64,000 bases of DNA from Nitrospira sp. (GTDB lineage Bacteria > Nitrospirota > Nitrospiria > Nitrospirales > Nitrospiraceae). The stretch spans positions 620,001 through 684,000 of the forward strand of contig JAVYIN010000005.1 in NCBI GenBank assembly GCA_035968315.1, given 5' to 3'. The notes under the pieces were generated by a model that was not told the origin of the DNA, did not search any database, and was given only the letters and a program-made list of their open reading frames with translations. A program made the position numbers and the translations under genes. Positions 42,448-59,462 of the stretch are shown here, in pieces. The number at the start of each line of letters is the position of its first letter. Positions within the stretch are counted from its first letter, which is position 1.

Positions 42448-43797
42448 TCACTTTCTGAGGACGCACTTCTCATACAGATCCTTCAGCTTGGCCGCCGGAT
42501 CATACCGGACCTTGAGCGCGCGGTAGGCCGGTTCGTTGTACAACTGCCAGAAGTCGTCGCGCGAATAGTACGCATCTGAGTAGAGGGACTTTTTGCCGTG
42601 GAGGGCCCGCACGGTGGCTTCGACTTTCTTATTGAAATACCCCTCTTCATGGTCGGTCTTCACCGCGTCCCAGAATCCGAAATTGACGTACAACATGCCG
42701 GGAGTCATCGGGTACAACGGATAGGAGGCCGTTGGATCGTAGGCTGCGACCGGACAGATCCACACCGGGGTGATCCCAATCTCCCGATTGAAGAACGCGG
42801 CAAACGTCGGCGCCTGCTCCAGCGGAATTTCCACGTCCTGAATCACGAGCTCCTGCCGGCCGGTCAGCGCGCCGGCGATCCGCTGGGCGACGGGTGAGCG
42901 ATTGAACCGGTTGCGCACCTGCCAATAGACAGTGGAGCAGAGACGCTTCCGGCCCCACAGCCACCGGACGAGCGGATGCTGGACGAAGAAATGTTTCGAG
43001 CACCAGAACCAATCGGTGTCCCATCGCCACAGGTAATCGTGCGCCGTCAGGTAATCCACCGTCTTCTGCTGGATCGATCGATAGTAGATGTGCTGATAGG
43101 TGTAATCGCTCACCCATTCAGCCTGATCGACCCATTCCCCGGTCGTGATATAGAGCTCCCGCCCGCTGAACATCGTGCCATCCACGAAAGCCACCTGCCC
43201 GTCCCGGCAGATGCGCCCCAGGGCCTGGAAATAGGTCTCCGGATCGGAATACCGCTCGTGCCGGAGCCGGACAAATTTCTTGACGGGAATGAGCGCGAGG
43301 GTGACGGTGAGCGCATAGCCCAGCGTGCCGTAGGAATTCGCAAACCCGAAGAACAGATCTCGGTGCTCGTTCTCTTTGGTGGCCGACACGACCCTGCCGT
43401 CAGGCAGGAGAATATCCATGGCCAGGACCGTTTCGTGGACGAAGCCGTACTTGAATGAGGACGATTCAATGCCGATCCCCGCCAATGCTCCGCCGATAGT
43501 AATCGACTTCAGTTGGGGGACCACGCAGGGCATCAGTCCGAACGGCAGCGTTTCGCGGACCAGCTCCTCGTAGGTCGTCATCCCTTCGACTAAGGCAGTC
43601 CTGGCCTGCTCGTCCACGCGGATCACATGGTTGAAGTCGCGGACGTCCAGCTTCTGCCGCGGCTCCTGCACCCGCTGACGGAAGAGATTGGAGGTGGGTT
43701 TGTCGAGGGCCAGCGATCCGGTTTGGCTAGACGCGCGCAGGGACTCCGCCAAGGCCGCTCGCTTGCGGGCATGGTCTTCTAGCGAGATCATCGCCAT
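42448..43797 (-). CDS. FAD-binding oxidoreductase, DWARF1/TmsA-like
   Basis: 449 residues. N-terminal FAD_binding_4 domain (about 25-175): RDFNHVIRVDEQARTALVEG and IGGALAGIGIESSSFKYGFV, then a second half with FGFANSYGTLGYALTVTLAL. This is the DWARF1/DHCR24 type that reduces C=C bonds. Its start overlaps by one nucleotide the stop of a CFA-type methyltransferase. In actinobacteria such a pair (TmsA reductase with TmsB methyltransferase) builds 10-methyl fatty acids, so reduction of a 10- or 11-methylene fatty acyl chain is a strong hypothesis. Plain steroid-like activity is less likely. Confidence 0.8.
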   Translation of the reverse strand: MAMISLEDHARKRAALAESLRASSQTGSLALDKPTSNLFRQRVQEPRQKLDVRDFNHVIRVDEQARTALVEGMTTYEELVRETLPFGLMPCVVPQLKSITIGGALAGIGIESSSFKYGFVHETVLAMDILLPDGRVVSATKENEHRDLFFGFANSYGTLGYALTVTLALIPVKKFVRLRHERYSDPETYFQALGRICRDGQVAFVDGTMFSGRELYITTGEWVDQAEWVSDYTYQHIYYRSIQQKTVDYLTAHDYLWRWDTDWFWCSKHFFVQHPLVRWLWGRKRLCSTVYWQVRNRFNRSPVAQRIAGALTGRQELVIQDVEIPLEQAPTFAAFFNREIGITPVWICPVAAYDPTASYPLYPMTPGMLYVNFGFWDAVKTDHEEGYFNKKVEATVRALHGKKSLYSDAYYSRDDFWQLYNEPAYRALKVRYDPAAKLKDLYEKCVLRK

Positions 43798-44906
43798 CAG
43801 CGCACCGCCTCATAGCCGCCCAACAGGCCATGCTTCGACATCACGATCTGCCAGAGATGGATGGTTCTGGCGCGGAAGGCCCCCGCGAGAGACAGGAGAT
43901 AGTACCGCCACATGCGGAAGAACCGCTCATCGAAGGTCTGCTCCCATTGCGCCTGATGCCGGTCGACGTTCTCCTGCCACGCCAGAAGCGTCCGGTCATA
44001 GTCGGGCCCGAAATTATGCCAGTCCTCCAACACAAAGAGCCCGTCCATCGCCTCGCCCAGTTGCGCGGCCGACGGCAGCATACCGCCTGGGAAAATGTAG
44101 CGATCGAACCAGGGATCGCCGGTGGTCACCGAGGCATTGTTCCCGATGCTGTGGAGCAGAAACAGCCCATGCGGCTTGAGCCGCCGATGGGCCACCTCCA
44201 TCAGCGTGCGATAATTCTTGTACCCGACATGTTCGCAGATGCCGATGGCCGCCACCTTGTCGAACTCCCCGGTGGCCTCACGATAGTCCTCGAGTTTGAT
44301 GTCGACGGGCAGTCCCGCGCACCAGCGGCGCGCGTAGGCGACCTGCTGCTCGGAAATGTTGTGGGCCACCACCGAACAGCCATAGTTGGAGGCGGCGAAA
44401 TGGGCGAACCCGCCCCACCCACACCCCAGCTCCAGCACACGGTCGCCTTTTTGAAGTTGCAGCTTCCGGCAGATCACATCCAGCTTCTGTTCCTGCGCCT
44501 CCTCCAGGCTCTTCACGCCCTTCCAATAGGCACAGGTATATTGCATGCTCGGGCCGAGCATCTGTGCGTAAAACTCGTTGCTCAGATCGTAGTGCCGTTG
44601 CGCCACAAGTTTTGAGCGGCTCGGCGTCTGCATATTGAAGAGGCGGGCTTTGAACCCGTTCAGAATCAGCCGCGTATCGCGCACGGCTTTGTCGAGTTCG
44701 ACCGCATGAATCCGGAAAAAGAACTCGTCCAGCCGGTTGGCATCCCACCAGCCATCCATATAGGACTCGCCGAGCCCGAGCGAGCCCTCGGCCAGGATCC
44801 GATCGTAGAATTGATCGTGGTGGACTTGGATATCACCCGGTTGGGTCCCGTTGATGTGCACCTGAGCTCGCTCGAGCAATTCCTGAACGGTGTGCTGTGC
44901 GTGCAT
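43797..44906 (-). CDS. CFA-family fatty-acid methyltransferase (cyclopropane synthase or TmsB-like)
   Basis: 369 residues from ATG 44906 (SD GGAGG...AGGGGAG; a frame open to 44957 is rejected). SAM motif I LELGCGWGGFAHFAA, the active-site loop GICEHVGYKNYRTLMEVAHR and the FIFPGG-like YIFPGGMLPS motif identify the cyclopropane-fatty-acyl-phospholipid synthase family. Acts on unsaturated acyl chains of membrane phospholipids. The overlapping FAD oxidoreductase suggests a methylene-to-methyl pathway rather than a cyclopropane end product; sequence alone cannot separate these. Confidence 0.9.
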   Translation of the reverse strand: MHAQHTVQELLERAQVHINGTQPGDIQVHHDQFYDRILAEGSLGLGESYMDGWWDANRLDEFFFRIHAVELDKAVRDTRLILNGFKARLFNMQTPSRSKLVAQRHYDLSNEFYAQMLGPSMQYTCAYWKGVKSLEEAQEQKLDVICRKLQLQKGDRVLELGCGWGGFAHFAASNYGCSVVAHNISEQQVAYARRWCAGLPVDIKLEDYREATGEFDKVAAIGICEHVGYKNYRTLMEVAHRRLKPHGLFLLHSIGNNASVTTGDPWFDRYIFPGGMLPSAAQLGEAMDGLFVLEDWHNFGPDYDRTLLAWQENVDRHQAQWEQTFDERFFRMWRYYLLSLAGAFRARTIHLWQIVMSKHGLLGGYEAVR

Positions 44907-45137
44907 CTCGACGCTCCCCTTTCCTCCACCGGGCGGCAGAGTCTTTGCGCAGGCCAAAACGGAGTGACGTACTTCAACGCGGGGCTATTCTACGGTATCC
45001 GCAGGGTCCCTGAGAAGGAGAAAACAGAGGGGACAGTACCGGGAAAAGGGGCAGAATGAGCCGAACGGGACGAACCGTGAGCCACCGCGCCGCAGCCTCA
45101 CAGCTCCAGATCCAACACCGAAACCTCGAGCCCTGCG

Positions 45138-45674
45138 CTATAGATCGGCGAGGCCAAGCGTCCGTTTCCAATGCTCCACATACGCCCAGTCGATATGCAG
45201 CTCAGACTGGCGCACGTGGATTTTCTCCAGATCGGCGAGATCCTGCAGCCGCCCCGCCAGCGTCTTTAAGATGATCAGATCTTCCACCGTGAGAATGGGA
45301 ACCGACAGCGAGGCAAACGAAACCCGGCGGGCGCGACCCAATGCCGTTTGAAGATAGGTGGAATCCGCCAGGAGCAGATCGACGAGGATTTCCTGATCGC
45401 GGCGAATTCCCACGATTCGCCAAATCGACAGTCCATGAAACACCATCGGTGCAGGATGTATCACCGTGGCATCGAACAATGGCGACACCAGCGCATGGAG
45501 CGTATCCCGGGACGGCCGATCGAGAAGAATGAGAAGATCAATATCGGTTGTGGCCCGTGGCTCGACCAAGGCACTGTACGCCCAGCCTCCTGCAAGCGCA
45601 TAGGCCACACCACGACGATTGAACTCGGTAATGAGGTCGGAAAGGGCGTGAATTAGGATCGGCTCTGCCGCCAT
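45138..45674 (-). CDS. Nucleotidyltransferase-fold protein
   Basis: 178 residues. Pol-beta nucleotidyltransferase motifs: ALAGGWAYSALVEPRATTDIDLLI (G-G and D-x-D), with a third acid candidate in QEILVDLLLADSTY. C-terminal half is helical (ILTVEDLIILKTLAGRLQDL). The family includes AbiEii/MenT-type toxins and simple nucleotidyltransferases. It overlaps the preceding 65-residue gene by 22 nt, so the two form a pair of possible toxin-antitoxin or accessory nature; target unknown. Confidence 0.75.
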   Translation of the reverse strand: MAAEPILIHALSDLITEFNRRGVAYALAGGWAYSALVEPRATTDIDLLILLDRPSRDTLHALVSPLFDATVIHPAPMVFHGLSIWRIVGIRRDQEILVDLLLADSTYLQTALGRARRVSFASLSVPILTVEDLIILKTLAGRLQDLADLEKIHVRQSELHIDWAYVEHWKRTLGLADL

Positions 45675-45850
45675 GCCTGCTCTTTGGCCAGTCGAATCTC
45701 GTGCATCACCTGGACGAGTCCATCGCCCTGCGGATGGTCCTGTCGCAGCACGGCCTGACGCAAGGCCAACCCCAATTCCGTCAATTCGATCGTCCGGCGC
45801 AAATTGTCAGCAATCCGCGCAGCATCATGGTGTGGACTTACTTGTGGCAT
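45653..45850 (-). CDS. Small partner of the nucleotidyltransferase
   Basis: 65 residues from ATG 45850; the frame is open to 46042 but the earlier part lacks a start with an SD. MPQVSPHHDAARIADNLRRT is followed by a helical, charged region (LGLALRQAVLRQDHPQGDGLVQVM). Its 3' end overlaps the nucleotidyltransferase start by 22 nt. Size, position and overlap suit an antitoxin or an AbiE-like partner, but no domain is recognised. Confidence 0.55.
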   Translation of the reverse strand: MPQVSPHHDAARIADNLRRTIELTELGLALRQAVLRQDHPQGDGLVQVMHEIRLAKEQAWRQSRS

Positions 45851-45998
45851 CGTCAGCCGCCTTAGATAACAAGGGGATCTGTGCCAGAGTCTACTAGACA
45901 CCTTCCTTGGGCGCAAGCAGGAAGACCGGACTAACCGAATCGAAGCCGTCCAGCCGGAAGAAGAGAATACCCGCTCGCCAGGAGAAGCTCCGCGTCGA

Positions 45999-46217
45999 TC
46001 AGTCCGGCTGAGGCCGTTGATACCGGATCGAGTAGTGCCCACATTTCATGCAGGCGACGGAGTACGACGGGAGAGAGAGATGGTAGAGCTTGTGGATATA
46101 ACTGGGCGGCACCGTCGAGTCAGGGTGCCCTTGATTGCGCTGGGTGTCGAGCGCCCGCCCACACTGGCCATTCGCACAATTCACAGTTTCCGGAACGATG
46201 GGAGCATTTATAGTCAT
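45999..46217 (-). CDS. Small zinc-ribbon protein
   Basis: 72 residues. Two cysteine knuckles, NCANGQCG (C-x4-C) near the N-terminus and ACMKCGHYSIRY (C-x2-C) near the C-terminus, make a likely four-Cys zinc site. Pro/Tyr-rich middle. No family recognised. It lies opposite the start of the HigB remnant region. Confidence 0.55.
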   Translation of the reverse strand: MTINAPIVPETVNCANGQCGRALDTQRNQGHPDSTVPPSYIHKLYHLSLPSYSVACMKCGHYSIRYQRPQPD

Positions 46218-46378
46218 GCGAGCACCATAGCAGGGTCATCGCGCGAAGTCCAAGGGGTGTAAGAATCGGAAGAAACACGTTTCGGCTGATCGCAGCCATT
46301 CATTATAATCGGAAGAAGCTGTACATCCGGCACATCCTGACGCACGCAGAATACGACCGGAACACGTGGAGGACTTGA
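46214..46378 (+). pseudogene. HigB-type toxin, N-terminally truncated remnant
   Basis: The frame is open from 46214 and lacks a start codon, but from about 46264 it reads IGRNTFRLIAAIHYNRKK, LYIRHILTHAEYDRNTWRT and stops at 46378, the C-terminal half of HigB toxins (the FRLIAxIxY and RxxxTHAEYD blocks). The first 45 or so residues are missing and no start fits. The intact higA gene begins 4 nt later. The toxin is therefore probably dead. Confidence 0.7.
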
Positions 46379-46381
46379 TCC

Positions 46382-46852
46382 ATGCTTGCCAAATACATTC
46401 AGGACGCCCATACCGACTACCGCCGCATCCGGCAGCGGATTCCACTCGGTCCGCTACGGACTGAAGCCGATTATAACCGCGCCGTGGCCGTCCTCGATGA
46501 AATCCTGGATAAAATCGGTCAGCAAGAAACCCACCCCCTGGCCGACCTGGCGGAGATGCTTGGCCTCTTTATCGAAGCATATGAGGACGCCCATGTCCCC
46601 TTCTCCGACTCATCCGCCTCCGAAATCCTCCGCACCTTGATGGAAGAGCATGCGCTCAAGCAATCGGACTTGTCAGAGATCGGCAGCCAGGGCGTCGTCT
46701 CAGAAATCCTCTCCGGCAAGCGAGACCTGAACGTCCGCCAAATCACCCAATTGGCCGCCCGCTTCGGTGTCTCACCCGCGCTCTTCATGCCTGTTCCGAA
46801 GAAACCCACCAAACGCCCTTCGTCCCGAACACGCGTAGCAAGCCGGCGGTAA
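46382..46852 (+). CDS. higA: HigA-type antitoxin, XRE family
   Basis: 156 residues. N-terminal helical part (YNRAVAVLDEILDKIGQQET, PLADLAEMLGLFIEAYED) and C-terminal HTH (about 90-140: LRTLMEEHALKQSDLSEIGS, VVSEILSGKRDLNVRQITQL) in the manner of HigA. SD GGAGGAC lies 9 nt before ATG. Its toxin gene upstream is a remnant, so this antitoxin appears to be orphaned or acts as a regulator. It marks the left edge of the AT-rich defence-like segment. Confidence 0.85.
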   Translation: MLAKYIQDAHTDYRRIRQRIPLGPLRTEADYNRAVAVLDEILDKIGQQETHPLADLAEMLGLFIEAYEDAHVPFSDSSASEILRTLMEEHALKQSDLSEIGSQGVVSEILSGKRDLNVRQITQLAARFGVSPALFMPVPKKPTKRPSSRTRVASRR

Positions 46853-47218
46853 CTCAGTCTGCTGATCCGAGTCCTCGCCACGATCGGCCATCGGGCAGAA
46901 GCCCGGGTGAAAAATGCAGCAGCCTAATCTGCACCACCCCCCATATTCTTGAGCGAAAAGCGGTCCTCAGGTGCCAAGTCAAGCAACGACCCTGATTCCC
47001 GGTTCTCTCCACCTATCTCACTTGATCAAAAAATACGCTAAAAATCAGAATACCCCATCTGTGTCATTGCTTTCTTATCCATACATGGGTAGGTGTTGAG
47101 CGAACATTCGGATAGGCGAAATGACTCCTATATCCATTTTCCTCTTCTGACGAACTTCCTTTCTTGACTTGAAGGAGGCGGGAAATGATAGGTTGCAAGG
47201 CGGTTGAGGAATATTCCT
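46853..47218. other. AT-rich intergenic region before the methylase operon
   Basis: No ORF or RNA gene is seen in this 366-nt gap. Base composition falls from GC-rich to AT-rich between about 46980 and 47200. A weak promoter candidate (TTGACT at 47164-47169) precedes the methylase start, which is overlapped by a 12-bp palindrome. Confidence 0.5.
47207..47218. promoter_or_regulatory. Palindrome over the methylase ribosome-binding site
   Basis: AGGAATATTCCT at 47207-47218 is a perfect 12-bp palindrome ending one base before ATG 47219 and containing the SD (GAGGA, 47206-47210). It could be an operator for autoregulation, or could pair in RNA to hide the SD. Role inferred. Confidence 0.35.
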
Positions 47219-48304
47219 ATGGTTGGAATCGATTTATTCTCAGGTGCCGGAGGTATGTCTATCGGTGCTACAATGGCAGGGGTCAGAATTTCCCTTGCCA
47301 TTGAGGCAGATCGATCTGCAGCGGCAACTTATGCTCAAAATCATCCAAACACCCCAGTCCTCCAAAAAGACATTCGGCTAGTTGACCCACTGAGCATTCC
47401 CCAGATTTCCAAACTTAAAAGAACAAAAGAACCAACTGTCATATTTGGCGGCCCACCATGCAGAGGATTTTCAACCTCAAATCAGCGAACCCGCTCAGCT
47501 TCAAACCCCTCAAATTGGTTATTTCGAGAATACACACGTTTCGTCAAAACTATCCATCCTGACTGGATTGTCTTCGAGAACGTACGAGGCATTATTGAAA
47601 CAGAAAGAGGTGCCTTTCTTGAGCATATAATGCGTGAGCTCAAAAAGATTGGCTATACCCTCTCTTTCGGAGTTCTCAACGCTAAGGACTTTGGTATTCC
47701 CCAAGACCGATCACGGCTTTTCATCATTGGGTCTCTCCATGGCGTTTCGTTACCACTACCCAAAGGAAAATCCCACCGCCAAATTACGGTACAAGAGGCT
47801 TTGAGTGATTTGCCTGAATTGGAAAATGGCGCAAGTTCCGATATGCTTCGGTATCCGGTCAAGGCTAGTACTTCGTATGCAAAAATGTTGCGTGGCACAT
47901 TGACCCACTGCAGTGGTCATCTTGTAACCCGCAACGCATCCTATGTACTGAGTCGTTACCGCCATATTCCGCAAGGAGGAAACTGGGAACAGATTCCTAG
48001 CCGTCTGATGAAAAATTATGCTGATCCTTCCCGATGTCATACTGGGATCTACTACAGACTAAAAGAGAATGAGCCTTCTATCGTAATTGGGAACTTCAGA
48101 AAGAATATGCTCATTCACCCAAGGCAAGACCGAGGGCTGTCTGTCCGCGAAGCGGCCAGGCTTCAGTCTTTCCCTGATTGGTTCCGGTTCACCGGATCAA
48201 TAGGCTTTCAACAACAGCAAGTGGGGAATGCCGTCCCTCCGTTTTTAGCTAAAGCAATTTTCCAAGAACTACTTTCTATTAATCAATCCGGTGATTGCAC
48301 ATGA
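47219..48304 (+). CDS. DNA (cytosine-5) methyltransferase
   Basis: 361 residues from ATG 47219 (a TTG 15 nt upstream is the alternative). Motif I DLFSGAGGMSIGAT, motif IV GGPPCRGFSTSNQ (catalytic Cys; PCR replaces the usual PCQ), motif VI FENVRGIIET, motif VIII QDRSRLFIIG, motif IX-like REAARLQSFPDWFRF and motif X QQVGNAVPP are all present. Target specificity cannot be read off. Codon use and GC are lower than the flanks. First gene of a four-gene operon; the next gene overlaps by 4 nt. Confidence 0.92.
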   Translation: MVGIDLFSGAGGMSIGATMAGVRISLAIEADRSAAATYAQNHPNTPVLQKDIRLVDPLSIPQISKLKRTKEPTVIFGGPPCRGFSTSNQRTRSASNPSNWLFREYTRFVKTIHPDWIVFENVRGIIETERGAFLEHIMRELKKIGYTLSFGVLNAKDFGIPQDRSRLFIIGSLHGVSLPLPKGKSHRQITVQEALSDLPELENGASSDMLRYPVKASTSYAKMLRGTLTHCSGHLVTRNASYVLSRYRHIPQGGNWEQIPSRLMKNYADPSRCHTGIYYRLKENEPSIVIGNFRKNMLIHPRQDRGLSVREAARLQSFPDWFRFTGSIGFQQQQVGNAVPPFLAKAIFQELLSINQSGDCT

Positions 48305-49329
48305 CCCTGGCTCACCTATTACCGTTGGAAGCATGCCTAAAGGAAGTATCGGCCTCATCGAGGAATGAATTTCCAACCCCACAAATTGACTATTTCCAAC
48401 GATATCGCTCCGTTAAGGAGTGGTTAATTAACAATGTGTACAAGCATATTGGGGCTACTCTTGCAACCGATGGAGGAATCTATACGGATCATGGCCCCGA
48501 TCACTTCGACCAGGTTATTGTTTACGCTGGGCTAATGATTGGTGCCGAAGAGCCCAAATGCGTTCCGGATCGATTGAAGCCCTACGAGGTATACGTCCTT
48601 CTCATGGCTATCCTGTTACATGATGCGGGCAACGTCTATGGACGTATCGGTCATGAAAAGAAAGCCTTCAAACTCCTCAGTGAAATGGGAGCGTTGGCTG
48701 GGGATGATAACGTCCAGAAGAAAGACATTGCCGATGTGGCACAGGCGCATGGCGGGGAAACACCAACAGGAGATAAAGATACAATTGGAATCCTCAAAGA
48801 ACATAGTCGGCATGCGACGGCCAGCTTCAGAGCACAGGTCTTAGCGGCTCTCCTTAGATTTGCCGATGAGGTCTGTGAAAACCGTGGTCGTGGGGCACGA
48901 GTACTTCTTGATGGAGGAGCCATTAGCAAGAAGAGTGAAGTCTATCATGCGTATGCTGAGTCAGTAACAACTGCGTGGCCTGATAGAGGCGCCAAAACTA
49001 TTGATATTAAATATGACATCCCGATCAACCGAGCAACACGTTTATGGGGAAAAGGTGACGGTGAAACATATCTGATCGATGAGATCCTGCTCCGGTTAGA
49101 AAAAATGGACCTCGAGCGAAAATATTGCACTCGTTTCATGTTCCCGGTATTTAGAGTGGATCGAATTGATGTGACGATCAATATTAACGGAGAAGACATG
49201 ACTCCAATCCAAACACATCCCATTCGACTTGAGGAGTCTGGGTACCCATCCTCTCCTGAAAACCTAGCCAAGAGATACCCCCATCTGCTTGGGCAAACAC
49301 TTCACAAATGTCTCCAAACTAAGATTTAA
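48301..49329 (+). CDS. HD-domain phosphohydrolase of the methylase operon
   Basis: 342 residues from ATG 48301, overlapping the methylase stop (ATGA). Metal site of the HD family: TDHGPDHFDQV (about 62), LLMAILLHDAGNVYGRIGHE (the HD pair, about 107) and further D residues in LLRFADEVCENRG. C-terminal part is mixed alpha/beta. HD proteins in conflict systems cleave nucleotides, ssDNA or cyclic messengers; here it is the candidate effector or second-messenger hydrolase. Similarity to Cas3/HD-CE-type domains is a pattern-level impression. Confidence 0.75.
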   Translation: MTLAHLLPLEACLKEVSASSRNEFPTPQIDYFQRYRSVKEWLINNVYKHIGATLATDGGIYTDHGPDHFDQVIVYAGLMIGAEEPKCVPDRLKPYEVYVLLMAILLHDAGNVYGRIGHEKKAFKLLSEMGALAGDDNVQKKDIADVAQAHGGETPTGDKDTIGILKEHSRHATASFRAQVLAALLRFADEVCENRGRGARVLLDGGAISKKSEVYHAYAESVTTAWPDRGAKTIDIKYDIPINRATRLWGKGDGETYLIDEILLRLEKMDLERKYCTRFMFPVFRVDRIDVTININGEDMTPIQTHPIRLEESGYPSSPENLAKRYPHLLGQTLHKCLQTKI

Positions 49330-49335
49330 GCATCT

Positions 49336-51126
49336 ATGGATGTCATTGGCCAAAATCCTTTTTCCGTTCAAACTCCAGAAGGCATGTCAGCCCAAGAGAT
49401 AGTAGATTTGTTCGTTGACATCTTCTCAGATTACTTCAACGTCCAAAAGACTGGACATGCATTTCTTCACGGGCCTCGCGGGTCAGGCAAGAGCATGATG
49501 CTGCGCTTTATGGCACCTGATTGCCAAATGATAAGTCGAAACGTGTCCCTTAAACAGCTCCCTTACTTCGGTGTATATGCCTCAATTAAAGCTACAGATC
49601 TAAGACTTAGTGAATTTGCTCGTCTCAAAGATAAATTCGCTGAGGTTATCCTTGCAGAACATGCAATGGCTCTTTTTTTCGCCACAAAAACAATTTTCGC
49701 AATTGATTCTGCAGTTAGTATTAGCAATCTGTCCGAAGCAGAATCCAAAGAAGTTTTCCAGACTTGCTCGCGAATCCTTGAGCGTTTGCAACAAGCAGGT
49801 TGGACTCCGAAATCAGAGGCTGAGAAACCAACAACTCTTGCGGATCTCGTAAAGCTCTTTGACAGCCTCTACTTAAGGACCATCGCATACCTCCGAACAG
49901 TTTCATTCACAGGGAAGGATATGCCGTACTCCGACGCATTGTTGGGATTTCATGATTTCCTACTTCCACTTTTCAAAGATCTCTCTAGCCTAAGCTTCAT
50001 GCCCAGCGGCCCTATATTTCTGATGATCGATGACGCAGACAATCTCAGCGAAAAACAAACCCAAATACTTAACACCTGGGTATCTTCCCGAAGCACAGAC
50101 TTCGTTTGCCTTAAAATCGCCACCCAATTGAACTACAAGACCTATCGCACAATCAACGAAGGCAAGATAGCCTCACCACATGATTTCTCAGAAAGTAATA
50201 TTACCAGCATCTATACCTCTCCCAAAGAGCGGTATCCAAACTGGGTTAAAGAGATTGTAAGAAAACGGCTGCAAAGAGCAGCCATCACCGCATCTCCCGA
50301 AGAATTCTTCCCAGAGGACAAGGCGCAAGAGGCTAAAATTGAAGAAATAGCCAAAGAGCTTAAAGCCAACTGGCCAAAGTTTGGTCGTGGGTATCGTCCA
50401 GAAGACGACGCTTATCGCTATGCCAGACCAGAGTATATTAAGCGGTTAAGGGGAAGCAGCAAGCAAGGATCCACCTATCGTTACGCAGGGTTCAAACAGA
50501 TCGTTCATATTTCTTCTGGTGTTATTCGTCACTTCCTTGAGTCCGCGTCTCTTATGTACGGTGAGCAAAGAAAACATTCCAAACATGGCACGGTACAATT
50601 TATTGACCCCAGAATTCAGCACGACATTCTCAAGGGACAGTCAGACAATTTCATGATGGCCGAGTTCGACAGATTAGCGATAGACGAGCAACAAAATCCC
50701 GACAATGTTACGAAAACTCAACGCCTCAAAAATCTCGTGACAGTTTTGGGTGGCTTATTCCAAATGATCCTTGTCTCCAACGCAGCCGAACGTCGGATAT
50801 TTTCATTTGCTCTTTCTGACGAACTAGATCCCGAAGTTAAGGAAGTCCTGAAACTTGGGATTGAGAATGGATACCTCTATGAAGCTGCAATCGGCACAAA
50901 GGAAGGAACAGGGCGAACTAGACTCTACGTTCTAAGCCGTATGATGGCACCCCATTTCCTACTCGACCCAACCGGCTTCTCCGCATATAAGTTCGTCACC
51001 AACGAATTTTTGCGAAGTGCTATCCTACATCCCACCACAACCCTGCGCAGCATTAAGAACCGAATAGATGATGAAGTAATTGGCAGTTCTCAACGAGATC
51101 TCTTTTCGGAGGAAACTTCTTCGTGA
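49336..51126 (+). CDS. Large P-loop ATPase (ORC/STAND-like) of the methylase operon
   Basis: 596 residues. Walker A GPRGSGKSMMLRF (about 45), Walker B IFLMIDDADNLS (about 237), then a helical C-terminal half containing a probable winged helix (GYLYEAAIGTKEGTGRTRLY). The plan of Walker A close to the N-terminus, DD box and long helical tail is that of ORC/STAND ATPases used as sensors in defence systems. Codons are AT-rich. It begins 6 nt after the HD gene and overlaps the next gene by 4 nt. Confidence 0.75.
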   Translation: MDVIGQNPFSVQTPEGMSAQEIVDLFVDIFSDYFNVQKTGHAFLHGPRGSGKSMMLRFMAPDCQMISRNVSLKQLPYFGVYASIKATDLRLSEFARLKDKFAEVILAEHAMALFFATKTIFAIDSAVSISNLSEAESKEVFQTCSRILERLQQAGWTPKSEAEKPTTLADLVKLFDSLYLRTIAYLRTVSFTGKDMPYSDALLGFHDFLLPLFKDLSSLSFMPSGPIFLMIDDADNLSEKQTQILNTWVSSRSTDFVCLKIATQLNYKTYRTINEGKIASPHDFSESNITSIYTSPKERYPNWVKEIVRKRLQRAAITASPEEFFPEDKAQEAKIEEIAKELKANWPKFGRGYRPEDDAYRYARPEYIKRLRGSSKQGSTYRYAGFKQIVHISSGVIRHFLESASLMYGEQRKHSKHGTVQFIDPRIQHDILKGQSDNFMMAEFDRLAIDEQQNPDNVTKTQRLKNLVTVLGGLFQMILVSNAAERRIFSFALSDELDPEVKEVLKLGIENGYLYEAAIGTKEGTGRTRLYVLSRMMAPHFLLDPTGFSAYKFVTNEFLRSAILHPTTTLRSIKNRIDDEVIGSSQRDLFSEETSS

Positions 51127-52136
51127 AGCTTTCAACTAAAATCTCTCTTGCCGAACTGCATAATTATGCTCCGGATAAGATTGATCTCTTCATTGGGTGT
51201 GCAAGCTTCGAGAAGCGATCCCAGTCTCTCGCAAGAGCGATCACGCCAAATCGGGTCGGTCATGCCGTGTTTTGTGTAAACGAAGATTATGCCGAATCTG
51301 CCAGCAAGAATATCGAGGCCTTGAAGAATCTCTATCCGTCAAAGCACGAGATACTGAATATTCGAACTGACGCCCCCCTATTGGCAGCAGATCATTTTTC
51401 TGAAACTCTGGCTGCTGCCCCCATAATATCTGGGGGAACCATATTTGTTGATATTACAACATTTACTCACGAGCAATTGCTTATACTCATTCGGATACTC
51501 CGCAACTCAGTGCATAGATTTAAGATCATTGCTGGCTATACTGGCGCCAGCCAATACGCAACAGATCTACCTGACGAACAAAAATGGCTCAGCAAAGGTG
51601 TAGATGATATCCGCTCAGTCCTTGGGTATCCAGGCAATCTACTACCATCGAGAAAACTGCATCTAGTTGTATTGGCAGGTTTTGAGAGCGAGCGAGCCGA
51701 GAAGGTCATTGAGGCCTACGATCCAGCAATTATCTCACTAGGCATAGGAGAGCAATCAGCCTCCATAAGCAAAGAACACCATGCTACCAACGCAGTGTTT
51801 CACAGAAAACTCCTGGAGCTCGTCGAAAAAAAGGCCACCGTAATTGCAAAGGTTGAACAATTCCAATTCTCATGCATCGACCCTCTTGATACTAGACGCA
51901 CAATTCTAGAACAGGCAAAGAAATTCCCAGGTCACAACACCGTAATCGCCCCCATGAACACAAAGATATCAACTCTCGGCACTGCCTTAGCTGCATTTGA
52001 AGAAGAATCGCTGCAAGTCTGCTACGCTCACCCTAAGGCTTATAATACTCATACATATTCCCTACCGGGATCAGATTGTCGCTTATTTGATCTAACGGAT
52101 GAACTTGACGCAATGACATCCCCTGCTGAATTATAG
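51123..52136 (+). CDS. Unknown alpha/beta protein ending the methylase operon
   Basis: 337 residues, starting at GTG 51123 that overlaps the ATPase TGA. Not recognised. Two Rossmann-like halves can be seen: KIDLFIGCASFEKRSQSLAR, HAVFCVNEDYAESASKNIEA and GGTIFVDITTFTHEQLLILI in the first; KLHLVVLAGFESERAEKVIE, HNTVIAPMNTKISTLGTALA and ESLQVCYAHPKAYNTHTYSL in the second. Such repeats resemble nucleotide- or second-messenger-binding folds (for example CARF-like), but no diagnostic motif is present. Probably soluble: no membrane segment. Confidence 0.7.
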   Translation: MKLSTKISLAELHNYAPDKIDLFIGCASFEKRSQSLARAITPNRVGHAVFCVNEDYAESASKNIEALKNLYPSKHEILNIRTDAPLLAADHFSETLAAAPIISGGTIFVDITTFTHEQLLILIRILRNSVHRFKIIAGYTGASQYATDLPDEQKWLSKGVDDIRSVLGYPGNLLPSRKLHLVVLAGFESERAEKVIEAYDPAIISLGIGEQSASISKEHHATNAVFHRKLLELVEKKATVIAKVEQFQFSCIDPLDTRRTILEQAKKFPGHNTVIAPMNTKISTLGTALAAFEEESLQVCYAHPKAYNTHTYSLPGSDCRLFDLTDELDAMTSPAEL

Positions 52137-52259
52137 CCACGCCTATGCTTTCGTCTGTTGACCGGAATCACCTCCCCCTCCTGAGAATAAAATTTTAACA
52201 TTCTGAATTGTTCAAAATTTGGCAAAACCTGAGACCGCCTAGTGTTACCGGCACAGATC

Positions 52260-52688
52260 ATGACCGACGCTTACAATCTCCACCGCTTCCTCGACGCACA
52301 AGCGCACACCTACAACACAGTCCTTGCTGAGCTGCGGGCCGGAAGAAAGCGTAGTCACTGGATCTGGTTTATCTTTCCTCAAATCACAGGTCTTGGCCGC
52401 AGTAGCATGGCGCAGCAGTTTGCCATTGCCTCTCTCGACGAGGCCAAGGCTTACATACAGCACGCTATCCTTGGTCCCAGACTCCGAGCATGTACGCAGC
52501 TTGTTCTCGACGTGGAGGGGCGTAGCGCTGAAGAGATCTTCGGGTATCCCGACCATCTGAAATTCCGCTCCTGCCTGACCTTGTTTTCGACCGCTGCCAC
52601 CGACAACGCACTCTTCAAAGACGCCCTGCTCAAGTACTTCGACGGCCAGCCCGACCAACTGACGCTCGATCTTTTGGTGCAGCAATAG
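52260..52688 (+). CDS. DUF1810 family protein
   Basis: 142 residues from ATG 52260 (a start at 52242 would add six residues). The RKRSHWIWFIFPQITGLGRS block and ARAYIQH-like DEAKAYIQHAILGPRLRACT, then HLKFRSCLTLFSTAA, are the DUF1810 signature. Function unknown in the family. Back to high-GC composition, so it may mark the right edge of the island. Confidence 0.88.
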   Translation: MTDAYNLHRFLDAQAHTYNTVLAELRAGRKRSHWIWFIFPQITGLGRSSMAQQFAIASLDEAKAYIQHAILGPRLRACTQLVLDVEGRSAEEIFGYPDHLKFRSCLTLFSTAATDNALFKDALLKYFDGQPDQLTLDLLVQQ

Positions 52689-53025
52689 GTTTCCTCCGCC
52701 TTTCCCCAGTGTGGCCGATGCGCATCGCCCAACCACAACCGGCACAAGTGGTCCGTCCCGTCTCCCCTCCTTGATCATGGGCCAACACACGTTATCTATA
52801 TAGTGGGCGGAGGTTGGTGAGAGGAACACTCAATGGAATCGAGGTCGGGTGTAGGGGCGGTGAGCAGGCCCACCGATGGGTGGGAAGTCTAAAACCCCTC
52901 CGAGATCTCAGCAATTGACACACATCTCTCAGAACCTGCTTCCGCTCCGCTTTTTTATTGTCTATCCCTCAGCCTTTTCCCCTCGCAACGCCCATTCTTG
53001 ACGAGAGCCAAATTATGATTATCCG

Positions 53026-53120
53026 GTAGATAGGGGCTGTGAGCGCAGCTCGAAGACTCCACTGCCCATCTCTTCGAGCGAAGGGTTGCCTCCCACGTCG
53101 CTCACACCCCCTGTTTTTTT
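53026..53120 (+). ncRNA. Candidate small RNA with intrinsic terminator
   Basis: Nested stems: outer GGGG-C-TGTGAGCG (53033-53045) pairs with CGCTCACACCCC (53099-53110); inner GCTCGAAGA (53048-53056) pairs with TCTTCGAGC (53071-53079). The outer stem is followed by CTGTTTTTTT (53111-53120), an intrinsic-terminator tail. A possible -10 (TATGAT, 53014-53019) puts the start near 53026, giving about 95 nt. The CCTCCC stretch in the 3' loop could pair with ribosome-binding sites. Not 4.5S RNA (no GGAAG core). No family recognised. Confidence 0.5.
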
Positions 53121-53234
53121 AAGCATCACGGGCACGGGAGTTTTTCTGACTCACCGTTTCCCTATGCGCGATGGTCCAGTGTCCGGCATGCGCAGACAAT
53201 ACCCCTCTCATAGAGCCTCATCTTCCTTCTCCAC

Positions 53235-53451
53235 GTGCGGCGGAGACGACCCTCCACCTGCGACATGCACGAAGGCGCGGGCACCACGCTTGTTGATCAG
53301 CTGCGGCCAGCTCCTGGCTGGCAATGCCGATGTTCGAAGATCCGTTCAGGCGACGCATTGAACGGAACAAGTTTCGGCGTTGAGCAGATGATCCACGTAG
53401 CGTGGTCGCGCCACAGTGCCGGAGCAGGCGGAGGGATCGTCTCCGCCGCAC
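53235..53451. repeat. 217-bp MITE/REP-like inverted-repeat element
   Basis: Terminal arms GTGCGGCGGAGACGACCCTCC at 53235-53255 (shown here in short as GTGCGGCGGAGACGA + CCCTCC) and its inverse at 53430-53451 match at 21 of 22 positions, with one extra base. Inside, ACCACGC (53283-53289)/GCGTGGT (53400-53406) and TCCGTTC (53341-53347)/GAACGGA (53360-53366) nest symmetrically around the centre. The whole can fold as a long cruciform. No ORF of its own is convincing. Mobile or REP-like origin is inferred. Confidence 0.6.
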
Positions 53452-53549
53452 ACCCCTCCCCCTTCCTTGACACCCCTTCCGGCGGCTCGTATGCTCAAAA
53501 TTGCCGGTAACGGTTTATTCTGATTCGGATGTGCCGGAGGGACACCTCG

Positions 53550-54884
53550 ATGGACTTCCCGAGCAGTCCTCCCTGTCTGCGGCTCCTGTCCCGGCTCATC
53601 GCGGTTGGCGCGATGTTCGCCGTCTTGCTGACTGCCCCGCTTTCTGTGCGCGCCGAATCGTCCGTAGTGCTCGCCACCTATGACGGGATCATCAATCCGG
53701 TCTCCGCCGAATATCTGCACGATGCGCTCGCGTCGGCCCAAGAAACGAAGGCGCAGGCGCTGGTCATCCGCCTCAATACGCCCGGCGGCCTCGATACGTC
53801 GATGCGGCTCATCATCAAGGATCTGACCGGCGCCACTGTGCCCGTGATCGTCTATGTCGCGCCCTCCAGCGGGCGGGCCGCCTCGGCCGGGGTCTTTATC
53901 ACGATGGCCGCGCATGTGGCGGCGATGGCGCCCGGCACCAACATCGGCGCCGCCCATCCCGTGTCCGTGGGCGGGGGCGAGATGGATGCGACGATGAAGG
54001 AGAAGGTGGAGAACGATTCCGTGGCCTATCTCAAATCAATCGCCGAGCAGCGGGGCCGGAACGCCGCCTGGGCGGAAGAGGCCGTCCGGAAGAGTGTGTC
54101 GGTGACGGAACGGGAGGCCGTGAAGCTGAAGATCGTCGATCTGATTGCCGAAGACATCCCGGCGCTGCTCAAACAGCTGGACGGCCGCACGGTTCCCCTC
54201 TCCAGCGGACCGGCGGTGCTGCACACGGCGGATGCCACGGTGCGCGAATTCCCGATGGGGCTTCGCCTCGAACTGCTCAAGACGCTCAGCGATCCCAACA
54301 TCGCCTATCTGCTCATGACCATCGGCACGATCGGCATCATCGCCGAGCTCTATAATCCCGGCGCGATTCTGCCGGGCGTCGTCGGGGCCATCAGTCTGAT
54401 CCTGGCCTTTTACTCCTTTCAGTCGCTGCCGGTGAACTATGCGGGCGTGCTCTTGTTCCTGCTCGGGATCGTCTTCTTCATTCTGGAAGCCAGCGTGACC
54501 AGTTACGGCTTGCTGGGCATCGGCGGGGTCGTGTCGATGCTCCTCGGATCGGTGATGCTAATCAAGACCGATGCGGAGTTTCTGCAGATTTCCTGGTCGG
54601 TCATCCTGCCGGTGGTCCTCCTTGTGGGAGCCTTCTCCCTCTTGATCGTCGGCATGGGCCTGCGGGCGATGGGGCGGCGGCCGGTGACCGGCCGGGAGGA
54701 AATGGTCGGGCTGGTGGGCATTGCCAAGACGGCGCTGGCGCCGCACGGCCAATTGGCGGTCCATGGCGAACTCTGGGAAGCCACCAGCGACCAGCCGCTC
54801 CGGGCGGGGGACGAAGCCGAAGTGGTGCGCATGGATGGCTTGCGATTGTACGTGAAACCCCTCTCCACACAGAAAGAGGCCTGA
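53550..54884 (+). CDS. nfeD: NfeD-family membrane protein with ClpP-type serine protease domain
   Basis: 444 residues from ATG 53550 (GGAGG 9 nt upstream). Signal/anchor ([17 protein letters not shown]), a ClpP-like protease domain ([30 protein letters not shown] with the catalytic Ser about 112; a Lys follows), four C-terminal membrane segments and a soluble NfeD OB-fold ([21 protein letters not shown]). These proteases cleave the C-terminus of stomatin-type partners. The slipin gene follows after 1 nt, the usual pair. Confidence 0.93.
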
Positions 54885-54885
54885 T

Positions 54886-55659
54886 ATGCTGTTCAGTCCA
54901 TTTGCCGCCGTGCTTCTCGTCTTGATCCTGATTCTGATGGGGTTCAACGTCCTGCGGGAATACGAACGGGCGGTGATCTTCCGCTGGGGCCGGCTGTCGC
55001 GCGGGCTCGTCGGGGGCAACGGGCCCGGCGTGGTGATCATCCTGCCGTTTATCGACAAACTGGTGCGGGTCAGTTTGCGCACGGTGGCGATGGATGTGCC
55101 GCCCCAGGACGTGATCACCAAGGACAACGTCAGCGTCAAGGTGAACGCCGTCATCTACTTCCGGGTGGTGGACCAGGAGCGCGCCATCATTCAAGTCGAA
55201 GATTATCTCTATGCCACCTCCATGATGTCGCAAACGACGCTCCGGAGCGTGCTGGGGCAGAGCCAGCTCGACGACCTGCTGTCGAAGCGGGAGCAGATCA
55301 ACGCCGACCTCCAGCGGATCATCGACCAGCAGACGGAGCCCTGGGGCATCAAAGTCACCGCCGTGGAAGTGAAGAACGTGGACCTGCCGCAGGAAATGCA
55401 ACGGGCCATCGCGCGCCAGGCGGAAGCGGAGCGCGAACGGCGCGCGAAGGTTATCCATGCCGAAGGCGAATTCGAGGCCTCGCGCCGCCTGGCCGATGCC
55501 GCCGATGTGATCAGCCGCAACCCGGCCGCCTTGCAGCTCCGGTATTTGCAAACGCTGGTGGAAATCGCGGCGGAGAAAAACTCGACGACGATCTTCCCGA
55601 TCCCCATCGACACCATCGCGCCGTTCCTCAAGGGTTTTGAGAAGAAACCAGAGCCGTAG
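54886..55659 (+). CDS. Slipin / stomatin-like SPFH protein
   Basis: 257 residues. One membrane segment ([18 protein letters not shown]) then the SPFH domain: [32 protein letters not shown]-like [20 protein letters not shown] and [15 protein letters not shown], and the coiled region [20 protein letters not shown]. Assembles membrane microdomains and is a likely NfeD substrate. Starts 1 nt after the nfeD stop. Confidence 0.94.
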
Positions 55660-55811
55660 CTTGTGTGTCCCAGGGGCTATGCCTCCGTCCCCCTGTCATA
55701 GGCAGGACGCTCCCCCGCTCCTTGCCCTTCCGCAGGGGCCTATGTAAGGATTGGACCTATCGTTCGACTCCTGAATAGATGCGACGCCCATCCAGCTAAA
55801 GGAGATCCCCT

Positions 55812-56231
55812 ATGCCTCCCAAAATCGATATCGGCCCGATTGTGAAAGTCACGAAGACGGACGAGGAATGGAAGAACCAGCTGTCGCCCCTGGCCTATCG
55901 GGTGTTGCGGCATGAAGATACGGAACGGGCCTTTACCAGCCCCCTCCATGAGAATCATCTGGCAGGGCTGTACCACTGCGCCGGCTGCGATCTGCCCCTG
56001 TTTTCATCCGAACACAAATTCGACAGCGGCACGGGCTGGCCGAGCTTTTGGCAGCCGATCGACCCGAAGGTGCTGGAGACGCGCACCGATTCCAAATTTT
56101 TCATGACCCGCATCGAGGTCCACTGCGCCCGCTGCGGCGGCCACCAGGGCCATGTCTTCGACGACGGTCCCAAGCCAACCGGCCTCCGCTATTGCATCAA
56201 CGGTGTCTCGCTCACGTTCGTCGCCGGCTGA
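55812..56231 (+). CDS. msrB: Peptide methionine-R-sulfoxide reductase
   Basis: Reduces methionine-R-sulfoxide in proteins. 139 residues. Zinc cysteines in CAGCDLPLFSSEHKFDSG and CARCGGHQGHVFDDGP, substrate loop GTGWPSFWQP, and catalytic Cys in LRYCINGVSLTF. No signal peptide, so cytosolic. SD AAAGGAG precedes ATG. Confidence 0.97.
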   Translation: MPPKIDIGPIVKVTKTDEEWKNQLSPLAYRVLRHEDTERAFTSPLHENHLAGLYHCAGCDLPLFSSEHKFDSGTGWPSFWQPIDPKVLETRTDSKFFMTRIEVHCARCGGHQGHVFDDGPKPTGLRYCINGVSLTFVAG

Positions 56232-56311
56232 TTGCCGCTCGAATGAGTGATAGCACTGCCCTCCGGATCGCTGTACAATCGACTAGAGTTCATCCCGGAG
56301 TCGTGGTCCCT

Positions 56312-57598
56312 ATGATTCGATCGCTGCCGTTGTCTGCGCTTTCGCTGCTGTGCCTCACGCTCCTCTCCTGTGGCGAGGAGTCGCATCTGCCATCGGTCCA
56401 GACCGACCCCTGTTCGTTAATTACCGCAGCCGAGGCGGAACGGGCTCTGGGCGAACGGGTTCAGGCTGGGGCACTCACCGATCCGAACACCTGTGTCTTC
56501 AAAGCCAGCCGCAACAACTCCAATGCCGTGACGGTGCAAGTGGATGAAACCGCAGGCAAGGACCGCCGCACCTGGTTCAATAAAGAGCGGCTCCGGCGGG
56601 ACAGCGATCTCCTTCCCGGTTTGGCCGACGGCGCGGTGCGGGTCTATTCGCCGCCCTCCTTGGCGCGGTTGAGCTTCATCCGCGGACAGGCGCTGGTGAC
56701 GGTCATGGTCTCCTCCCTTTCTCAGACCAATCTTCCGGACTCGGTCACGCAACTGGGCAAGATGGCCGCGGCTCGCTATGGCGGCTCGACGTTCGTGGCG
56801 GGGGACTCGGCCGGCTCTGTACCGCCCTCCGCACCGGCTGCCTCCATGCCGCCGGCCGCCACGGCTCGCACCAGCCAGGCGGCGATGACGCAGACGCTTC
56901 CCGCTGTCTCGGGCACTTCGTCCGGGCCGGCCAAATCCGTCCCGATCGACCTGGCCGGCCTGACCGGCACCTGGCATGCGCACGCGCTGCAGGGCGCGAT
57001 CAAGCATGAACTGCTGCTGGTGATTCAGCCGAATCGCACCTGGACGCTTTCGTCGATGATGCAATTCGACGGGGTCGTGAACGCCGACGCCGGCCGCTGG
57101 TCGCTCGAACGGTCGAACACCTTCAAGGGCCTCGCCTGGAAGGGCACCTATCTCACGAGCACCCCGCAATCGTTCTCCAGCACCGGCAGTCTCCATGCCA
57201 CGTGGAGCCGGCTGCAGCCGGACCAGGATCCCGCGCAGATTCCCGCCGAGCTCTGGGAGCTGCGGCACGAGGCGACGAGTGTGCCCGTGTTTCAACTGAA
57301 GACGGTCGATCCCGCGCTCGTCGGACGCTGGGAAGGCACCGGCACCTACGCCGGAGGCCCCGCGTCGTTTGTCTGGTCGATTAAACCCTCGGCCGCGGCG
57401 GATCTCCTGATTATCGAAACGCTGCGCGGGACGATCGTGACCAAAGCCGGCGTCCCCCGGCTGCAACCGGCGCAGAAGCGGCAGCGCACAGTCGATATCG
57501 TGGCCTTCCATGAGGGCGGATTGACCACGAGCGACGGAAAGACCAGTATCCGCTGGACGAAGGTCCTCCCTCCTCCGGCCCCCTCCCCGCAACTGTAG
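56312..57598 (+). CDS. Predicted lipoprotein, function unknown
   Basis: 428 residues from ATG 56312 (the frame extends to 56048 but lacks a signal peptide there). Lipobox LLSC after a hydrophobic LSALSLLCLTL. First domain (SLITAAEAERALGERVQAGA, TCVFKASRNNSNAVTVQVDE) resembles the periplasmic DUF3558 type by its AEAExALGExV motif, a guess; a Pro/Ala/Ser linker; then a second domain with GLTGTWHAHALQ and YVG-like VGRWEGTGTYAGGP repeats. Envelope-exposed; role unknown. Confidence 0.7.
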   Translation: MIRSLPLSALSLLCLTLLSCGEESHLPSVQTDPCSLITAAEAERALGERVQAGALTDPNTCVFKASRNNSNAVTVQVDETAGKDRRTWFNKERLRRDSDLLPGLADGAVRVYSPPSLARLSFIRGQALVTVMVSSLSQTNLPDSVTQLGKMAAARYGGSTFVAGDSAGSVPPSAPAASMPPAATARTSQAAMTQTLPAVSGTSSGPAKSVPIDLAGLTGTWHAHALQGAIKHELLLVIQPNRTWTLSSMMQFDGVVNADAGRWSLERSNTFKGLAWKGTYLTSTPQSFSSTGSLHATWSRLQPDQDPAQIPAELWELRHEATSVPVFQLKTVDPALVGRWEGTGTYAGGPASFVWSIKPSAAADLLIIETLRGTIVTKAGVPRLQPAQKRQRTVDIVAFHEGGLTTSDGKTSIRWTKVLPPPAPSPQL

Positions 57599-57646
57599 CT
57601 TCTCATGAATGGTGTGCTGTCTGACGGTCGGCGGGAGACGCGGGCC

Positions 57647-58060
57647 TTACAAACCGGAGACGGACGCCCGCAACACTTCGCGGATCTTTGCCGCCAAGCT
57701 GGATGGCCCATAGGGTTTCGTGATCAGCCATCCGCCCATGATGCCCTCGAAATTGGCCGGCGACACGACCCCGGAAATGAACAGCACCGGCAAGCCCGGC
57801 CGTTGCGCGCGAAGCTGCTGCGCCAGCTGCGGTCCTGACAGCTTCGGCATGGCAATGTCCGTCAGGAGCAAGGCGATCCGCTCCCGATGCTCCGCGAACA
57901 GGCGCAGGGCCTGCTCGCCATTTTCCGCGCAGAGGACGGGAAATCCCTGCTGTTTCAACATTTCTCCGGTGACGTAACAGACCGCCGGTTCGTCATCGAC
58001 GACCAGGATGGTGCCCGCTGCCTGTTCCGCTCCGGCTGGACCGGCCGCTGTCTTCTTCAT
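57647..58060 (-). CDS. Single-domain response regulator
   Basis: 137 residues, one REC domain. Acidic pair ILVVDDEPAV, phosphoacceptor Asp in ALLLTDIAMPKLSG, Thr/Ser position LFISGVV and the Lys in WLITKPYGPSS are all present. No output domain, so it would act by protein contact, CheY-like. Possible partner of the hybrid kinase 1.4 kb downstream; this is inference. Confidence 0.92.
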   Translation of the reverse strand: MKKTAAGPAGAEQAAGTILVVDDEPAVCYVTGEMLKQQGFPVLCAENGEQALRLFAEHRERIALLLTDIAMPKLSGPQLAQQLRAQRPGLPVLFISGVVSPANFEGIMGGWLITKPYGPSSLAAKIREVLRASVSGL

Positions 58061-58084
58061 GCCTTGTTGTTACACTCCGGTCTC

Positions 58085-58624: not shown

Positions 58625-58747
58625 GAGCTCACCCTACCATGTTCCTCTTGCAGGATCAGCCCACCAATGACGGGCCGGCATTCGGCTCTACTCGACCGGG
58701 CTCTAATACTCACGACCCGATAGCCGGAGGCACAGAATACGGAGAGG

Positions 58748-59335: not shown

Positions 59336-59462
59336 CTCCCCCTTGGGGTCTATTCTAGCTCGGCATACCCTAATGGAAACGGGCGCAGGAGGTCCATTCG
59401 ATTGTTCCAATCGTCATGATTGAAGGCATCTATCGGGGGAAGACGGAAATTTCCGGCGTGGG

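Follow-up and report, generated by a model that had tools for sequence, protein, structure and literature searches.

A four-gene operon was analyzed in a 64,000-nucleotide stretch of Nitrospira sp. DNA (the window; assembly GCA_035968315.1, contig JAVYIN010000005.1, positions 620,001 to 684,000 of the forward strand). The operon encodes a C5 cytosine DNA methyltransferase (MT), an HD-CE metal-dependent hydrolase (HD), an ORC-CDC6-like/STAND-type ATPase (ORC) and a stand-alone tandem CARF protein (CARF6). With slightly more confidence than doubt, we read this cassette as a mobile, methylation-guarded immune-type module in which ORC and CARF6 would form the switch and HD-CE would be an effector draining the nucleotide pool. 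The defense role is a prediction, though a likely one. The computational analysis established the gene identities, their linkage, mobility, the CARF fold, the HD metal site, exchange of the effector slot and recurrent thymidylate synthase neighbors. Loci and genomes are cited below by our L and G numbers.

All four genes are located on the forward strand, with MT at 47219–48304 (ATG start; the frame also opens at TTG 47204), HD at 48301–49329, ORC at 49336–51126 and CARF6 at 51123–52136 (GTG start). The initial annotation had described one tightly coupled unit, and every junction was verified: MT and HD overlap by 4 nt (ATGA at 48301), a 6-nt gap separates HD from ORC (49330–49335), and ORC and CARF6 overlap by 4 nt (GTGA at 51123). 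The reported drop in GC content was also found. GC per kb was 0.44–0.48 in 47001–52000, compared to 0.575–0.605 in 43001–47000 and 0.61–0.65 in 53001–62000. A promoter and terminator scan yielded about as much as in shuffled sequence.

MT matched PF00145 (E = 2e-65) and PADLOC MTase_II (E = 6e-114). Its catalytic PPC, ENV and QxRxR motifs were present, and across 13 sequences their residues varied little or not at all; the catalytic PPC cysteine, Cys81, is encoded at 47459–47461 (+). By profile and motifs, MT is thus a complete C5 cytosine DNA methyltransferase, as annotated initially. No nuclease family was matched in profile scans by the four cassette products or the three scanned neighbors, which upholds the earlier statement that no restriction nuclease is recognizable. 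The methyltransferases of 13 distant cassettes were also compared among themselves. Within what we take to be the target-recognition region, the second half (residues ~236–295) was more conserved than the catalytic half, and the first half (residues ~176–235) was not. A DNA motif common to these distant enzymes is possible.

ORC matched PF24389 at E = 3e-106, in two stretches, and the residues of Walker A (49471–49494, +) and Walker B (50017–50034, +) were invariant in 13 sequences, which places it by profile and motif among the ORC-CDC6-like ATPases. A PDB profile search with ORC returned a single TetR chain (E = 0.17). The fourth protein (P0004) matched PADLOC CARF6 at E = 9e-85. Its AF2 model (pLDDT 89.8) was closest to the solved structure of Can1 (6sce; Z 15.8, root-mean-square deviation (rmsd) 3.1 over 233 residues); next came Cam1, Csm6, Can2 and Csa3 and, lower in the list, the ring nuclease Sso2081 (Z 10.3). 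According to profile and modeled fold, it is a tandem CARF protein with no effector domain. The two Rossmann-like halves seen initially are therefore two CARF domains, and the protein called unknown at that stage is of the nucleotide-sensor type. Residues at what we presume to be the CARF motif positions were conserved in both halves, and CARF6 is predicted to sense a nucleotide ligand. SAKe6 designed proteins were rejected as relatives of CARF6, because only 17 residues were involved and no single stretch passed alone.

Searches covering genomes, plasmids and viral contigs were begun from ORC or HD queries. All four families were found adjacent to one another in 14 loci, one of which is that of the window, so the combination first noted in one place recurs beyond chance. 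The order MT-HD-ORC-CARF6 was kept in 13 loci, and MT was last in L087. The loci comprise the window, L031 (Cryomorpha) and L073 (a genome of the Magnetospirillum phylum). Plasmids carried L033 (Yoonia), L034 (Rhizobium), L035 (Agrobacterium) and L036+L095 (Spirosoma, spanning the record start), and viral contigs carried L051, L052, L053, L083, L087, L088 and L089. PADLOC confirmed 10 further CARF6 proteins besides that of the window. A PHROGs scan matched eight of 10 neighbors, including head protease, tail, portal, terminase and integrase families, and such phage-type neighbors adjoin L087, L083, L088 and L052. When one protein alone served as the query for genome contigs, no more than two loci were recovered; the viral scan with P0002 alone gave none, and that with CARF6 gave no new contigs. 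The flanks of L083 and L087 were alike by eye and their cassettes clearly different (MT first in one; MT last, with Vsr and ThyX, in the other), so this site is likely a cargo hotspot.

Incomplete arrangements were also recovered. L032, with its apparent copy L050, has only the tail of HD and no MT, and L075 is an HD-ORC-CARF6 set with the nearest C5 methyltransferase ~3.5 kb off. The record of L037 ends inside ORC and has no MT before HD. In this bacteriophage-labelled record, three large unidentified proteins (834, 303 and 705 aa) precede HD and ORC in the same direction, possibly a different partner set in place of the methylase.

At the window locus, the cassette lies in a segment that is absent from G014. 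Of the 59 relatives searched, G014 has the flanking proteins most like those of the window (94% and 92%). G014 aligns at 46265–46998 (92%) and 52260–52958 (88%), and 46999–52259 (no strand; alignment break-points uncertain by a few bases) is without alignment. The allelic site of G014 holds 1,345 bp with a different 290-aa frame in place of the cassette. The AT-rich block coincides with this segment, and CARF6 was matched in only two of 146 relatives, the window's own genome counted. The segment is therefore polymorphic and was probably gained here by horizontal transfer; the GC drop and the rarity among relatives favor gain over loss in G014, although such a loss could also have occurred.

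PF24389 was sought in 939 genomes: the 146 relatives, 395 genomes of the Cryomorpha phylum and 398 of the Magnetospirillum phylum. Strong matches (≥66 bits) numbered 23 genes, of which 22 were examined; the unfetched one, in G664, shares its coordinates with that in G815, scores almost the same and is apparently a near-copy. In all 22, CARF6 was beside or fused to ORC, and in L065, L074, L076, L077 and L078 it was recognized by a profile of our own only (E = 6e-26 to 9e-8). Weak PF24389 genes (<66 bits) were rejected as members, since 10 of the 11 fetched had no CARF6 (L047–L049, L068–L071, L080–L082); L069 likewise had no match to our own ORC profile. L079 was the sole weak gene with CARF6 among these 11, and many more weak matches exist.

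The position occupied by HD in the window differed among the 22 genes. It held HD in five (the tail only in G147), a phosphoribosyltransferase (PRTase) in six, a kinase in six, a calcineurin-like phosphoesterase in three, a TIR domain in one and another content in one. PF24390 was matched by the PRTases of L040, L042 and L076 and PADLOC PRTase_III-A by those of L040 and L042; the rest were identified by our own profile. The kinase is a separate frame in L044 and fused to ORC in L045, L046 and L067, and L066 and L078 combine kinase, ORC and CARF6 in one chain of ~1,240 aa. In L043 the TIR domain is fused in front of ORC, and the one other content is the ParA-like domain of L041. A methyltransferase gene was adjacent in 15 of the 22, that of L064 being recognized by eye only. 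Judged from these gene contents, ORC+CARF6 is the constant part of a larger modular family whose remaining slot varies. With HD, PRTase, phosphoesterase, kinase and TIR alternating next to the same two genes, the family allows a clean test of how an immune switch may be re-armed.

Some members of this family deserve a separate description. The PRTase-type sets of L076, L077 and L079 have no adjacent methylase in view and share a related HAD-domain protein (Pfam-tested in L076), with a PfkB-type kinase additionally present in L077 and L079; a sugar- or nucleoside-phosphate variant is possible. In the Rhizobium plasmid loci L097 and L101, the order is ThyX-MTase-PRTase-ORC-CARF6, and the ORC gene is in pieces and apparently decayed.

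A quick maximum-likelihood tree of 33 ORC domains placed the 15 HD-type rows in one clade (SH-aLRT 99). The sources in this clade are mixed, and the ORC of the window pairs with that of L075, which comes from a different phylum; transfer would produce such a pattern. The effector labels required six changes on the tree, against a minimum possible of five. PRTase accounted for three changes and phosphoesterase for two, of which well-supported branches force one each, and several of these rows are long-branched.

HD matched PF24391 at E = 8.5e-26, and H64, H68, H107, D108, H118, H150 and D189 were invariant in nine aligned sequences; the H107-D108 dyad of conserved metal ligands is encoded at 48619–48624 (+). 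The aligned ligands thus give HD the intact H...HD...D metal site of an HD phosphohydrolase, and both this hydrolase and the Walker ATPase named in the initial annotation are borne out. In the 398 genomes of the Magnetospirillum phylum, HD-CE occurred at 16 places in 15 genomes, two of which were ORC+CARF6 cassettes. Seven of the other 14 places were fetched: HD-CE was joined to an HSP90-like ATPase in two, WD40 repeats in one, a STAND NTPase with a sub-threshold TPR match in one and an iHD-CE/wHTH arrangement in two (one LmuA-like), and one was cut by a contig end. As far as domain content tells, HD-CE outside the cassettes mostly belongs to sensor-effector architectures. HD was read as an effector for this reason, and because its slot holds a kinase, a retron-type PRTase, a phosphoesterase or TIR in sister cassettes, which is what an effector slot would be expected to show. 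HD is thus most likely a swappable effector, with ORC+CARF6 as the switch and methylation as the self-mark.

HD may instead be an off-switch, a cyclic-nucleotide or oligonucleotide phosphodiesterase that destroys the CARF ligand; the effector would then be ORC itself or some host factor outside the genes seen. We consider this improbable; it remains in view because the HD fold is phosphodiesterase-like. Structural comparison of the AF2 model of HD (pLDDT 85.9) put PPX/GppA first (Z 11.9, rmsd 4.1 over 190 residues), and cyclic-nucleotide phosphodiesterases, for example PDE9A (Z 10.7, rmsd 4.5 over 228 residues), were also close. HD had a profile match to PDEB1 at E = 0.004. Calcineurin-like phosphoesterases, the slot alternative in three of the 22 genes, include cyclic-nucleotide phosphodiesterases. 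However, the model is mostly helical, so that Z values under ~13 may reflect a mere common arrangement, and Foldseek returned nothing at E = 0.001 or better (best E = 0.002). Furthermore, kinase, PRTase and TIR, which fill this slot elsewhere, are not phosphodiesterases that degrade a ligand, and HD-CE also occurs in sensor-domain proteins that have no CARF match in the same chain.

Under the effector reading of HD, the C5 methyltransferase, to judge from its family, would mark host DNA at one motif, and the ORC-type ATPase and tandem CARF would serve as a fixed sensor-switch. The ATPase may engage incoming DNA that has no such mark, or the replication of that DNA, and binding of a nucleotide ligand by the CARF protein may permit or restrict activation. 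HD-CE, once released, would hydrolyze a nucleotide or oligonucleotide that is phosphorylated; the most likely outcome is depletion of a cellular nucleotide pool and arrest of either the replicating phage or the cell. The parts of this scheme that we infer are defense itself, what triggers it, which ligand CARF6 binds, what HD cleaves and the use of methylation as a self-mark.

Several results weigh against this scheme. The cassette itself has no cyclase that could make a CARF ligand. In the window genome (99.97% complete), neither the Cas10 palm PF22335 nor SMODS (PF18144), the one palm family and the one CD-NTase family searched for, was matched. The most divergent CARF6 calls (L065, L074, L076–L079) came from our own profile (E = 6e-26 to 9e-7), and CARF6 of L065 also has a sub-threshold match to Pfam Peptidase_S66. 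In the fusion proteins L066 and L078, the kinase domain matched below the Pfam cut-off. Since seven of the 22 genes have no adjacent methyltransferase, methylation is not essential to the ORC+CARF6 core; L032 and L037 have no MT either, and none adjoins L075. Finally, six changes against a minimum of five indicate that slot exchange is old rather than frequent.

Cyclase families were matched in other carrier genomes. Two SMODS (PF18144) matches were found in Cryomorpha G146. G590 had PF22335 matches at E = 2e-29 and weaker, which may be other cyclase-fold proteins; this family also matches the E. coli control. Those of G147 were sub-threshold only. CARF proteins are known mainly as cyclic oligoadenylate readers in type III CRISPR. 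A tandem CARF paired with an ORC ATPase, in a genome with no Cas10-palm or SMODS match, raises the question of what else CARF reads.

It is distinctly unlikely, in our view, that the cassette is primarily an addiction or maintenance module, in which a genome that has lost the methylase would be left open to a DNA-sensing ATPase and a plasmid or prophage would thereby be stabilized, with phage defense secondary. The presence of cassettes on plasmids and viral contigs and the overlap of MT with the rest of the operon are consistent with it. However, no mobile-element gene was recognized among the three window neighbors scanned, MT is absent in several members, and effector exchange and the CARF protein are left unexplained.

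A thymidylate synthase gene lies within 10 nt of, or overlaps, five of the 14 complete HD cassettes. ThyA overlaps MT by 4 nt in L031, and ThyX adjoins L051 and L087 on the same strand and L034 and L035 convergently. The Cryomorpha genome holds two ThyA genes, L031's among them, so that of L031 is an extra copy. In a reverse test, 200 plasmid records with a ThyX like that of L034 (E up to 1e-30) were collected. Records named Borrelia, Borreliella or Candidatus made up 176 of these, and 12 of the 24 others were inspected. ThyX was beside an ORC+CARF6 cassette in seven of the 12, or in five of 10 when the query-source loci L034 and L035 were left out. The seven were L034 and L035 (HD), L091, L097, L100 and L101 (PRTase) and L093 (phosphoesterase), with one small gene between ThyX and the cassette in L091. 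In three rhizobial plasmid loci (L092, L096, L099), ThyX was directly followed by a conserved gene pair. The L092 pair matches the PADLOC candidate system PDC-M65A/B, and the L096 and L099 pairs are 69–78% identical to it; thymidylate synthase thus also accompanies a second predicted defense system. In L094 and L098, ThyX was beside neither an ORC+CARF6 cassette nor a PDC-M65-like pair.

ThyA and ThyX catalyze the same reaction and have no homology, so dTMP is the common factor. A more specific proposal, in which we place little confidence, is that an effector attack on the thymidine-nucleotide pool is made bearable by a cassette-borne ThyX or extra ThyA, as antidote or reserve, within a general non-CRISPR class of ORC+CARF modules driving interchangeable effectors. 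These partners make a nucleotide-pool mechanism directly testable. The dUTPase beside the PRTase cassette L040 was rejected as cargo; it is the only one found in that genome and thus probably a housekeeping neighbor. In G584 (L072), the genome holds a second dUTPase copy, and a dGTPase is also beside L072.

Vsr adjoins ThyX or HD in three of the 14 complete cassettes (L035, L051, L087). Vsr mends T:G mismatches arising from deaminated 5-methylcytosine, and its presence therefore fits an active 5-methylcytosine methylase; in L035, a second C5 methyltransferase beyond Vsr could be its partner instead. Neither thymidylate synthase nor Vsr was matched within window positions 39001–60000. Alternatively, the genes could serve mobile DNA in replication, repair or epigenetic regulation and have no immune role, with ORC as an initiator or loader and with HD and thymidylate synthase in nucleotide metabolism. 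Such a complex would suit the ORC/CDC6 similarity and the ThyX/ThyA and Vsr neighbors, but is very improbable given the kinase, retron-type PRTase and single TIR in the slot, the CARF protein, the patchy occurrence and HD-CE in STAND and WD40 proteins.

The immune-type reading was also compared to known systems. CARF6 shares its tandem CARF fold with Can1/Can2, Csm6 and Cam1 of type III CRISPR, most closely Can1, but its chain has no effector domain, and the predicted effector is a separate gene. Unlike the setting of type III CRISPR ancillary proteins, the window genome gave no match to PF22335, the one palm family tried. With regard to CBASS, no CD-NTase was recognized in the operon, and PF18144, the CD-NTase family searched for, had no match in the window genome but two in that of Cryomorpha G146. 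The PADLOC CARF6 families (including CARF6--CARF_STK_AAA) name a protein family, to which CARF6 of the window belongs by profile. A putatively self-marking methyltransferase and an ORC/STAND-type ATPase are features in common with BREX and type II restriction-modification, whereas the nuclease of the latter was not found in the products scanned. The PRTases of L040 and L042 resemble that of retron type III-A, but their neighbors are MTase, ORC and CARF6.

A fusion family of kinase, AAA+ and CARF is described in the available passages of PMC4012209, and the kinase-ORC-CARF6 fusions of L066 and L078 look like these proteins. Those of PMC12839542 cover ORC-Cdc6 ATPases in BREX, and those of PMC11090510 CARF together with restriction systems. 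The cassette is not described in the available passages of these three papers or of PMC5512222, PMC7159879 and PMC11229360, and no description was found among the papers listed from the open-licence literature, at the level of titles and abstract openings. In PADLOC, HD was matched by no model and ORC only by mad8 (E = 0.003). The parts are already catalogued (Pfam HD-CE, PRTase-CE and ORC-CDC6-like; PADLOC CARF6 among defense-candidate families). The whole system is apparently unnamed in the sources searched, where no named multi-gene system with MT, HD and ORC and no housekeeping match was found, and the initial placing of the combination outside named systems was therefore not refuted.

Two neighboring features were observed upstream of the cassette. 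An AbiEii/DUF2204-like nucleotidyltransferase gene (weak match) is located at 45138–45674 (−), within a stretch (45065–45938) that is likewise unaligned with G014 and forms a second variable patch beside the cassette. At 46382–46852 (+), a helix-turn-helix protein matched PADLOC PD-Lambda-2_B (E = 7e-19), and G014 has it too.

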